From Kushneria phosphatilytica (lineage in GTDB: Bacteria > Pseudomonadota > Gammaproteobacteria > Pseudomonadales > Halomonadaceae), in assembly GCF_008247605.1 (NCBI RefSeq), contig NZ_CP043420.1:2790001-2854000 (forward strand): a stretch of 64,000 nt of DNA. Reading direction: 5' to 3'. Both the position numbers and the translations under genes were made by a program. Below, in pieces: positions 30,369 to 59,675 of this stretch. Each line of letters starts with the position of its first letter. Within the stretch, counting starts at the first letter, position 1. The notes under the pieces are model-generated. The model was given only the letters and a program-made list of their open reading frames with translations. It was not told the origin of the DNA and did not search any database.

Positions 30369-31463
30369 TCAGGCCGGTACTCCCGCCGTTGTCGAGCCGC
30401 TCAACGATGCTTTCGCCAAGCGTTCTGCGGCATCCAGCAGCACGCTTCGGGTCTGGGCCCAACCCAGGCAGCCATCGGTGATCGATACGCCATGCTGGAG
30501 TTCGTCACTCAACGCCTGTCGACCGGCTTCCAGATGGCTCTCGATCATGACACCCGTCAGCGCCTGCTGCCCTGCCAGACGCTGCTCGATCACCTGCTCG
30601 AGCACTTCGGGTTGACGAAAGGGATCCTTGCCGCAATTGGCATGCGAACAGTCGACCATCAGCGAGGGGCGATGGCCGGCCAACTCGAGCGCCCGACAGG
30701 CTGCTTCGACACTTTGAGCGTCACAATTGGGTCCCTGGCGACCTCCCCGTAGTACCGGATGGGTATCGGGGTTGCCGGCTGTCTCGATCACTGCCGGGCC
30801 GCCCTGCTCATCGACACCGAAGAATCGATGACCGTGCGCGCTGGCGGTCATGGCATCCAGCGCCACACCCAGGCCACCATCAGTGCCGTTCTTGAAGCCC
30901 AGCGGAGCCGGAAAACCACTGGCCAGTTCCCGATGTACTTGTGACTCCGTCGTACGTGCCCCGATTGCCGCCCAGCTCACCAGGTCATCGATGTAGGCCG
31001 CTGTCATCGGCTGAAGCAGTTCGGTGGCAATCGGCACGCCGAGCGCAGCAATATCGCGCATCAGTCGTCGTGCACGCCACAGTCCGGCCGCCATGTCATC
31101 GCGACCGTCGAGATCAGGATCGTACGCAAACCCCTTCCATCCCACCGTCGTCCGCGGCTTTTCGATATAGACGCGCATCACCAGCAGTAATTGCTCGCCG
31201 ACCTGGTCGTTCAGATCCTTCAGATGATGGGCATACTCCATCGCCGCATGTTCATCGTGAATCGAACAGGGCCCCGTGACGACCAGCAGACGGGTGTCGC
31301 TACCATGAATGATGCGACGAATGGCATGCCGTTGCCGGGCGATTTCACGAGTGGTGGCAGTCGTTAGCGGTAGCTCGCGCTTCAATTCAGCACTGGAGGG
31401 CAAGGCTGCCCGGGCAGTACGAGCGGAACAGGTGGATTCAACGGGAGTAGCAAGAGTCGACAT
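30369..31463 (-). CDS. aroF: DAHP synthase, class I (3-deoxy-7-phosphoheptulonate synthase)
   Basis: It condenses phosphoenolpyruvate and erythrose 4-phosphate, the first step of aromatic amino acid synthesis. The protein has 364 residues. The E. coli AroFGH-type barrel includes RLLVVTGPCSIHDEHAAMEY, MRVYIEKPRTTVGWKG, GARTTESQVHRELASGFPAP and PSLMVDCSHANCGKDP, so the metal-binding Cys and the substrate lysine/arginines are present. Which amino acid inhibits it is not readable, so the aroF symbol marks class rather than isozyme. GGAG lies seven bases before the ATG. The 400 bases upstream hold two aromatic-rich leader ORFs, a terminator and a hairpin. Confidence 0.95.
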   Translation of the reverse strand: MSTLATPVESTCSARTARAALPSSAELKRELPLTTATTREIARQRHAIRRIIHGSDTRLLVVTGPCSIHDEHAAMEYAHHLKDLNDQVGEQLLLVMRVYIEKPRTTVGWKGFAYDPDLDGRDDMAAGLWRARRLMRDIAALGVPIATELLQPMTAAYIDDLVSWAAIGARTTESQVHRELASGFPAPLGFKNGTDGGLGVALDAMTASAHGHRFFGVDEQGGPAVIETAGNPDTHPVLRGGRQGPNCDAQSVEAACRALELAGHRPSLMVDCSHANCGKDPFRQPEVLEQVIEQRLAGQQALTGVMIESHLEAGRQALSDELQHGVSITDGCLGWAQTRSVLLDAAERLAKASLSGSTTAGVPA

Positions 31464-31484
31464 CAGGGCGCTCCGATATGTCAG

Positions 31485-31512
31485 GCGCCGTTGTGATTCA
31501 GCACAACGACGC
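31485..31512 (-). promoter_or_regulatory. Leader hairpin overlapping the stop of leader ORF 2
   Basis: On the minus strand GCGTCGTTGTG pairs with CACAACGGCGC (11 pairs, one G-U) around a 6-base loop that contains the TGA of the second leader ORF. It sits about ten bases before the DAHP synthase ribosome-binding site. A ribosome ending the leader would melt it. Confidence 0.55.
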
Positions 31513-31620
31513 GAGGATTCGTGGTTGCAGTGGACAGGCAGGGCTTACGCGCCCGAAAGAGCGCCAGGTGACAAACGACCAGCGAAACAGGCGGTTGAAG
31601 GCTGGGTTGTAATAACGCAT
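31498..31620 (-). CDS. Leader ORF 2 of the DAHP synthase gene, aromatic-rich peptide
   Basis: It encodes 40 residues. The first 22 are extraordinarily aromatic, beginning MRYYNPAFNRLFRW and continuing SFVTWRSF: two Tyr, four Phe and two Trp. GGAG lies nine bases before the ATG. Codons 19-21 include GGCGCTC, exactly complementary to GAGCGCC across the DAHP synthase ribosome-binding site (31467-31473). A ribosome stalled on the aromatic codons could mask this anti-ribosome-site and expose the enzyme's start. This points to translational control; a free functional peptide is also possible. Not seen as a named family. Confidence 0.6.
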   Translation of the reverse strand: MRYYNPAFNRLFRWSFVTWRSFGRVSPACPLQPRILASLC

Positions 31621-31657
31621 GGCTCTCGCTCCGTAATGGCCTTGAAGGGCGTGATAC

Positions 31658-31695
31658 AAAAAACCCCCGGTGGCTGGCTGCCGACCGGGGGTTTT
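31658..31695 (-). terminator. Strong intrinsic terminator/attenuator in the DAHP synthase leader
   Basis: On the minus strand AAAACCCCCGGT and ACCGGGGGTTTT form a 12-base stem with a 12-base loop, ending in TTTTTT. It lies between leader ORF 1 and leader ORF 2, 195 bases before the enzyme gene, where a transcriptional attenuator would be expected. The plus-strand T-run is shorter (TTTT), so it mainly works on the minus strand. Confidence 0.85.
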
Positions 31696-31740
31696 CCTTG
31701 AGGTGGGCAGCCTGATCGCTTTCAGGCACACCCGATTGAC

Positions 31741-31860
31741 TCAGGCGTGCCTGATACCAAACCAATAGCTGCCAAAATAACCGACATGATCCGTACACGC
31801 CGCCCATCGCCTGCCAGTAGAGGCCAGGGATTCGGGATGGGTAGCTGAATGTTGCGACAT
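31741..31860 (-). CDS. Leader ORF 1 upstream of the attenuator
   Basis: It encodes 39 residues with an aromatic cluster close to the end: GYFGSYWFG, that is Tyr28, Phe29, Tyr32, Trp33 and Phe34, plus Trp19. AGGA lies 11 bases before the ATG. The stop codon is 45 bases before the terminator stem. RNA between them can form competing stems: 31744-31753 with 31723-31732 (ten pairs), and 31722-31727 with 31710-31715 (six pairs). A third pairing is 31706-31712 with 31676-31682 in the terminator loop (seven pairs). This is the layout of an amino-acid attenuator of the trp/phe kind. Confidence 0.6.
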   Translation of the reverse strand: MSQHSATHPESLASTGRRWAACTDHVGYFGSYWFGIRHA

Positions 31861-31948
31861 GATCATGTTCCTGCTGCGAAATTCACGTTCATTACTGCGT
31901 GCTCAAGGCATTCAAAACTTGAGGATGCCATTACCGTCACTGAAAGTA

Positions 31949-32095
31949 TTACAGCTCATGCCAGAGGAACAAACCCGGCAGGGCTGCCAGCAGCGCCACC
32001 ATGACCAGCGCCACGACCATCAGTACGGCAAGCAGTTTCTCGTGGCGCTCACAGCGCCGGTGAAGACGGCGAAACAGGGACATTCGTGAACTCAT
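31949..32095 (-). CDS. Small single-span membrane protein
   Basis: It encodes 48 residues: a basic N-terminus with RRLHRRCERHEK, then one hydrophobic helix of about 25 residues (LLAVLMVVALVMVALLAALP) and a short LFLWHEL tail. GGAG lies nine bases before the ATG at 32095. The positive-inside rule puts the N-terminus in the cytoplasm. No family is recognised. It lies between folM and the aromatic leader on the same strand. Its stop is 88 bases before leader ORF 1, so it might share that transcript. Confidence 0.6.
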   Translation of the reverse strand: MSSRMSLFRRLHRRCERHEKLLAVLMVVALVMVALLAALPGLFLWHEL

Positions 32096-32172
32096 GAGTT
32101 CATCTCCGTTTGATACATCCATGCTTCTTCAGCAGTCACCGAGCACTGCCCGAGCGTTACCTGTTATTACCT

Positions 32173-59515: not shown

Positions 59516-59675
59516 GAAAACTCTCCTGAGTCGGGTTAGGCCTCCACGCATCCCATGGGTCCGACCGCATTGGCGGCACCCGGGACCATGTGTCGATGCG
59601 TGTGTGGGTTCACGTTTTATCGCGTCTCCTGCAACGGCCGGCTGGCAAGATTGCAGGAAATCGCGCGGCTTTATA
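59516..59675 (-). promoter_or_regulatory. rpsB leader and promoter
   Basis: On the minus strand TGGTATAAA gives an extended -10 (TATAAA at 59670-59675) with a poor -35. The leader of about 150 bases before rpsB can form GC-rich hairpins, as in the S2 autoregulatory leader of gammaproteobacteria. Binding of S2 is inferred from the family. Confidence 0.5.

Follow-up and report, generated by a model that had tools for sequence, protein, structure and literature searches.

The DAHP synthase genes of E. coli are controlled by TyrR and TrpR. The locus described here raises the question of whether the corresponding gene of Kushneria phosphatilytica is controlled instead by ribosomes that read a leader peptide. 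We analyzed a 64,000-nucleotide stretch of the genome (the window, to which all coordinates refer), in which the regulated gene, an aroF-type DAHP synthase gene (3-deoxy-7-phosphoheptulonate synthase), lies on the minus strand at 30369–31463 (NCBIfam TIGR00034, 428.6 bits; NF009395, 495.1 bits). Toward aroF, a folM-like dihydromonapterin reductase gene is followed by a 57-codon ORF, a first leader ORF (leader 1), a terminator and a second short ORF (leader 2); the attenuator element is present in a single copy in the genome. The 57-aa ORF (31949–32122), just upstream of leader 1, encodes a peptide with a hydrophobic C-terminal half and gave no match in NCBIfam; other small hydrophobic ORFs occupy a similar place upstream of the leader in loci L091, L145 and L152. 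Elsewhere in the window, a t44 RNA (RF00127, 79 bits) was detected at 59535–59624 on the minus strand.

Leader 1 (31741–31866, minus strand, ...HVGYFGSYWFGIRHA) can start at ATG 31866, which gives 41 codons, or at ATG 31860, which gives 39, and terminates in GYFGSYWFGIRHA before the stop codon at 31741–31743. Its aromatic control codons are UAU UUU and then UAU UGG UUU. The segments of the switch lie on the same strand. Segment A (GGCAGC, 31768–31773) lies over the aromatic codons and, in the minimum free energy (MFE) fold of the window, is the partner of segment D when no ribosome is present. Segment B (GGCACGCC, 31744–31751) is made of the last leader 1 codons and segment C (GGTGTGCC, 31725–31732) follows the stop codon and pairs with B, while segment D (AGGCTGCC, 31706–31713) is the 5' arm of the antiterminator and segment E (GGCAGCC, 31676–31682), at the terminator apex, is the target of D. 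An alternative pairing of C is provided by an extension, GCCTGA (31722–31727), with TCAGGC (31710–31715) of D. The intrinsic terminator (31658–31691) consists of CCCCCGGT (31684–31691) and ACCGGGGG (31664–31671) followed by six T (31658–31663). With RNAfold, the energies in the window were −25.5 kcal/mol for the terminator and −19.5 kcal/mol for D:E, and the leader folded at −103.6 kcal/mol, far below its shuffles (−75.1 ± 5.2; z −5.5; 0/200 as good).

An earlier note on this DNA had described a 39-codon minus-strand ORF with an aromatic cluster at its C-terminus, a strong terminator and three competing stems. All of these were recovered: the ORF with 39 codons from ATG 31860, the terminator with its stem at 31664–31691 and the T tract behind it, and the stems B:C (31744–31753 with 31723–31732), C:D (31722–31727 with 31710–31715) and D:E (31706–31712 with 31676–31682). 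A simple promoter and terminator scan of the region did not list the leader 1 terminator, because its loops were limited to 3–8 nt and the lower stem here encloses 12 nt. As to promoters, TTGCCA or TTGTCA with TAGGAT before leader 1 scored 9 or more in 21% of 165 loci (duplicates included) versus 1% of shuffles, and in the window this conserved-promoter search gave no good match (best 6 of 12).

The earlier note had proposed a comparison of the regions upstream of DAHP synthase genes in related genomes. For this comparison, relatives were picked by their AroF protein and not by the leader. The loci comprised 80 from named genome contigs (one of them, L076, without upstream DNA), those of 10/10 genomes of the window's genus and 81 further loci of the family; of the 132 family genomes with an AroF match at 1e-120, 91 were covered. 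The resulting 170 loci included 11 pairs of identical sequence, mostly one genome sampled twice; removal by exact identity left 159 distinct upstream regions from Halomonadaceae and Pseudomonadaceae, in which close relatives are kept. An aromatic leader in the same place as leader 1 was recognized in 159/159 of these, 154 by an automatic criterion that also demands a G run after the stop codon and 5 by eye (YWFSH-stop), and the stems covary, as described below. The criterion picked up 0/159 reverse strands and 4/1590 base shuffles. It also picked up 0/10 upstream regions of the other DAHP synthase (about 50% identical), before which no leader was found in 10/10 congeners. Adjacent Tyr-Trp-Phe codons were present in 151/159 distinct regions, and in three loci of one other genus (L142, L145 and L152) leader 1 reads GYWRWF instead of YWF. 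Leader 1 typically ends in FYFGYWFSHWRA-stop in Pseudomonas and in GYWYWFSxGVPA in Halomonas. The aromatic fraction was 0.387 in the 7 codons before YWF versus 0.036 earlier in the leader (n = 156, with duplicates); over the whole of leader 1 the codon-position signal was weak (116/148/161, with duplicates). Pfam and NCBIfam gave no match at E 0.1 for any of the 9 leader peptides tried.

Downstream of leader 1, a script detected a GC-rich stem of 7 or more pairs in 157/159 regions, and in the remaining two it was seen by eye. Among the 157 scored regions, 139 have 4 or more T in 8 after the stem and 18 have 3 or fewer; 16 of these 18 are of a Salinicola type, namely L005, L009, L012, L053 and 12 of 14 further loci of the same genus. 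Leader 2 is absent from all 18 Salinicola-type regions. Termination in the regions with poor T tracts is doubtful, and the Salinicola-type switch may work differently. The AroF of the window is 83% identical to that of one congener (genome G008, locus L084) and only 60–62% to those of the other eight, to which it is no closer than to Salinicola or Pseudomonas; this divergence may result from rapid change or from transfer, even though the leader is of the kind seen in the genus.

We also built a covariance model of the leader 1 element (R1) and searched with it without reference to aroF (E 0.001, strict filters). R1 matched 28/194 genomes sampled from the order and 6/274 from the class, at 32 distinct places. 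Of the 20 places inspected, 17 lay before an AroF-like gene, including some in other families with leaders such as FFWWFGYGFYFSQSRGRP. The other three matches (L211, L213 and L214) had no AroF downstream and were set aside as false.

The competing stems were examined by permutation and by alignment. In Halomonadaceae, none of 2000 permuted pairings equaled the native B:C, C:D and D:E duplexes in strength (unique pairs n = 29, 29 and 22–26; L068, in which no D was recognized, was left out), and control combinations were not exceptional (C:E 1767, B:E 1581, B:D 804 and spacer:E 1887 of 2000). On an alignment of 53 sequences, 93.1% of cells pair and double changes occur at 7/15 pairs, a level reached by 2/500 shuffles, while slid controls paired in at most 46.4%; the number of further pair types did not clearly exceed the shuffles (41/500). 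By stem, 92.4% of cells are paired in B:C, with changes on both sides at 5/8 pairs, 93.8% in D:E (double changes at 2/7 pairs), 88.1% in C:D (1/4) and 99.5% in the terminator stem. The permutations and shuffles leave relatedness in, and the control combinations answer it only partly. The B:C pairing is kept while the codons of B change from Arg-His-Ala in the window to Gly-Val-Pro in Halomonas. The Pseudomonas D:E helix is interrupted by mismatches, usually one or two per row and more in L052, and its permutation test was weaker (43/2000 for D, 10/2000 for a longer D); Pseudomonas C:D was not significant in this test (362/2000). The assignment of segment B is based on covariation of B:C, that of D on D:E covariation and the permutation test, those of C and E on covariation, permutation and folding, and that of the terminator on sequence, energy and alignment.

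Folding with the ribosome placed at different positions pointed the same way. The leading edge of a ribosome lies 12 nt downstream of its A site; with the Trp codon in the A site it ends just before B, so that the geometry fits. Placing the ribosome at Trp rather than at the stop codon raised the predicted D:E pairing in 122/125 distinct parsed loci (means 0.79 and 0.33; 32/165 loci, duplicates included, did not parse). Ahead of the synthesis of E, D was paired upstream with a probability of 0.22 when the ribosome was stalled versus 0.88 when it was at the stop, the latter being higher in 128/132 loci (with duplicates). The equilibrium switch of the window itself is weak, with P(D:E) of 0.87 stalled and 0.85 at the stop; the order of synthesis must therefore do the work there, and before E is transcribed D is paired upstream at 0.40 stalled versus 0.69 at the stop.

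These data suggest the following mechanism, which draws on covariation and anatomy. A ribosome stalled at the aromatic codons of leader 1 would let B pair with C, which would leave D free to pair with the terminator apex E, and RNA polymerase would read into aroF. When Tyr, Trp and Phe are plentiful, a ribosome at the stop codon would mask B, C:D would form and so would the terminator; in the case of no translation, A would sequester D and the terminator would likewise form. Binding at the apex would block the terminator in that E holds the bases closing the upper stem, and a seven-pair D:E helix in so small a loop would leave the lower stem little room. The earlier note had left the exact switch open, as D does not overlap the 5' arm of the terminator; this point is now largely resolved, since D attacks the apex (GGCRRCC) and D:E itself covaries. 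Its reading of peptide-directed attenuation is borne out by the conservation of the leader in all distinct regions and by the covariation of the stems. Its term "classic-looking" calls for a qualification, in that the register is his-type and not that of the four-segment trp attenuators, and in that another leader ORF lies beyond the terminator.

Leader 1 displays the features of an attenuator: an ORF of end-product codons, which we infer to be translated and to depend on this for its function, a terminator before the gene and mutually exclusive stems. The closest known system is the his operon of E. coli and Salmonella, a his-type leader-peptide attenuator whose D segment attacks the 5' arm of the terminator. 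The likeness lies in the control codons within a short ORF and in the alternation of B:C plus D:E (read-through) with C:D plus the terminator. In contrast, the aroF leader would sense three amino acids through its Tyr-Trp-Phe triad, precedes a DAHP synthase gene and directs D at the apex rather than at the 5' arm; the Rfam His_leader model (RF00514) scored 21.1 bits against the window, below its cutoff of 49. The enterobacterial pheA and trp attenuators likewise have aromatic control codons and a terminator before a biosynthetic gene, but they sense a single amino acid, use the four-segment register and precede other genes. Judged by its sequence, leader 1 is thus a deeply conserved, covarying aromatic attenuator with a his-type register and a three-residue sensor, and we put the probability that it acts as a ribosome-mediated transcription attenuator sensing Tyr, Trp and Phe together at roughly 0.88.

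Transcripts that read through would then reach leader 2, which most likely senses the same amino acids again and would adjust the translation of aroF. This aromatic-rich ORF (31498–31620, minus strand, 40 codons, MRYYNPAFNRLFRWSFVTWRSFGRVSPACPLQPRILASLC) begins with MRYYNPAFNRLFRWSFVTWRSFGRVSP, lies between the terminator and aroF and was absent from the earlier note; its counterpart in G008 begins with MRYYSYFSGFPFHWRSAARR. Its ribosome-binding site, GGAG (31629–31632), lies eight bases before the ATG, and in the window 34 nt separate the end of leader 2 from aroF. A leader ORF that has its own ribosome-binding site and immediately precedes the gene is also what characterizes an erm-type translational attenuator. 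Leader 2 is present in some form in 139/159 distinct regions. A nucleotide-motif form was found in 134/159 distinct upstream regions, the window excluded, in which the invariance of the motif is by construction; among Trp-Arg-Phe leaders found by peptide, independently of that motif, the codons CGA UUU occur in 110/111 (with duplicates). By our reading of the sequences, the window, G008 and three further loci (L133, L170 and L178) carry an aromatic-rich ORF in this place without the exact motif. In 20/159 regions leader 2 was not seen, namely 18 of Salinicola type together with L142 and L152, while L145, of the same genus as these two, keeps it; leader 2 is dispensable, because it is missing in these 20 regions.

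The coding pattern of leader 2 differs between its parts. The aromatic fraction is 0.274 before WRF, 0.072 in base shuffles and 0.006 after WRF (n = 141, with duplicates). Its N-terminal part shows a third-position excess (75/72/119) and single changes of which 81 are synonymous and 100 non-synonymous, compared with 16 to 38 in a spacer control; in the tail the codon-position signal is weak (81/107/110; all of these counts include duplicates). Two internal motifs are separated by a multiple of 3 nt in 95/97 cases, many of them close relatives, and on these in-frame distances translation probably continues to the end of the ORF.

Halomonadaceae have, 8 nt after the UUU codon of leader 2, a pseudoknot formed by CGGUCGG with CCGACCG and GCCACC with GGUGGC. 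In an alignment of 44 distinct pseudoknot-form sequences chosen out of 75, 99.0% of cells were paired and double changes occurred at 5/14 pairs (reached by 6/500 shuffles); slid controls paired in at most 53.1%. The same two helices are possible in 37 Pseudomonas long-form loci, with 6–8/8 and 6/6 pairs and one mismatch in 34 of them. A model of the Halomonadaceae form (R2) matched 67/121 sampled genomes of the family, once each, and 0/10 in the genus of the window, the window included. In the sample of the order it matched 2/145 genomes, both within the family, and it did not pick up the Pseudomonas form.

For the window, the MFE fold offers a candidate translational hairpin (31467–31565, minus strand) between GGCGCTC (31559–31565, inside leader 2) and GAGCGCC (31467–31473), the latter overlapping the aroF Shine-Dalgarno GGAG (31471–31474); the fold was not significant (z −1.56). 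In Halomonadaceae, the b/linker/a' segment of the pseudoknot is complementary to the Shine-Dalgarno region in a permutation test (2/2000; ACCUCCG core 64/2000), and loop 3, which is outside the model, scored similarly (4/2000). These observations are suggestive at most of sequestration of the aroF Shine-Dalgarno by leader 2. Programmed frameshifting on CGA UUU A, ahead of the pseudoknot, was considered and rejected on two grounds. A ribosome shifted into the −1 frame would typically reach a stop after two codons (10th to 90th percentile, 72 loci), and leader 2 and aroF stand in no constant frame to each other (66/40/35 of 141, with duplicates).

We infer that leader 2 is probably a second, translation-level sensor. 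Ribosomes stalled at its Tyr, Trp and Phe codons would not disrupt the pseudoknot and would keep the start of aroF accessible, and ribosomes running through it would cover that start or release the anti-Shine-Dalgarno ACCUCCG. The complete two-stage reading goes further. In it, leader 1 (Tyr-Trp-Phe) sets termination, and leader 2 (Tyr...Trp-Arg(CGA)-Phe) stalls the ribosome before the pseudoknot or another structure and sets aroF translation; the arrangement is ancestral to Pseudomonadaceae and Halomonadaceae, with stage two lost in Salinicola and a few others. We hold it tentatively, at a little under even odds. Leader 2 might instead be an ordinary upstream ORF that couples its translation to that of aroF or protects from Rho, or might encode a small functional protein, which we regard as possible, if rather doubtful. 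Its stop codon lies within 12 nt of the aroF start or overlaps it in 50/65 distinct Halomonadaceae, as simple coupling, itself possible, would have it, and 85 protein clusters, named hypothetical or uncharacterized, match the Pseudomonas leader 2 peptide. However, coupling does not need aromatic residues confined to the part before WRF, and the tail varies between groups, being much shorter in 21 Pseudomonas short-form loci.

A sensor at leader 2 would form one half of a two-leader arrangement. Two leader ORFs before one gene are also known from ermB and from the Salmonella mgtC leader (mgtM and mgtP), with other signals. To our knowledge, in neither of these is a terminator that responds to amino acids followed by a further leader ORF. 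The two leader peptides of ermB are described in PMC8274638 as translational attenuation.

Leader 1 has a counterpart in Rfam. In Pseudomonas loci, RF00627, "Pseudomonas sRNA P15", begins some 14 codons ahead of the leader 1 stop, runs as far as the terminator and scored 126, 113.2, 110.5, 100.2 and 91 bits in five of them (L029, L004, L035, L067 and L013). It reached 70.6 bits in L200 (family f43 of the order), above the gathering cutoff of 70. The full model scored 24.7 bits (E 0.0048) against the window, which is thus not a member by Rfam score, and 26.3–31.1 bits against four Halomonadaceae loci (L082, L063, L005 and L085), also below the cutoff. By position and anatomy, RF00627 is the same element as the window leader, and P15 is therefore most likely the terminated aroF leader. 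At L029 2613–2730 and in other Pseudomonas loci, P15 is typed as a gene, yet it covers the last part of what looks like a coding ORF together with the attenuator; the typing looks wrong.

That same typing would fit a trans-acting small RNA, in which the leader ORF is incidental, and a terminated leader would indeed look like a stable short RNA. We consider this very unlikely as the main role of leader 1, given that 17 of the 20 inspected places from the aroF-blind R1 search lie before an AroF-like gene and the other three look false, that an aromatic ORF is present with its control codons concentrated just before the stems, and that coding segment B keeps its pairing with C through the change of its three residues. 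A secondary trans role of the leader 1 RNA is conceivable, as reported for S. meliloti peTrpL. Equally improbable is a metabolite-binding riboswitch in place of a ribosome sensor. A 2008 paper suggested from synteny that P15 may be a riboswitch (PMC2527527), and the pseudoknot of leader 2 has a compact, strongly conserved form. The conserved bases of leader 1 are nevertheless the YWF codons, the competing arms and the terminator, with no other conserved core seen, and codon patterns together with indels that keep the frame support a coding nature of leader 2; a ligand for its pseudoknot could still exist. Chance, that is, an aromatic-looking ORF before an ordinary terminator, is already refuted by the universal conservation with near-empty controls and by covariation, even though short ORFs are plentiful (the six frames of 7 kb hold 88 with at least 25 aa).

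The attenuator as such was absent from the libraries searched, and our literature search found no paper describing this aroF attenuator or calling P15 an attenuator. Panina 2001, Vitreschak 2004 and Merino & Yanofsky 2005 may contain predictions of such an attenuator. The available main text of PMC2965389 mentions neither DAHP nor aroF, and the available text of PMC3460626 does not mention P15.

Read as a ribosome-mediated attenuator, leader 1 would turn P15, an "sRNA" of unknown role, into a readable cis-acting switch, and it offers a testable mechanism for the control of entry into the aromatic pathway in Pseudomonas and Halomonas, unlike the repressor control of E. coli. Genomes with two leaders and with one provide a natural comparison for what a second, translation-level sensor adds. 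For engineers of aromatic products in Pseudomonas and Halomonas, the leader would be a specific target for deregulation.
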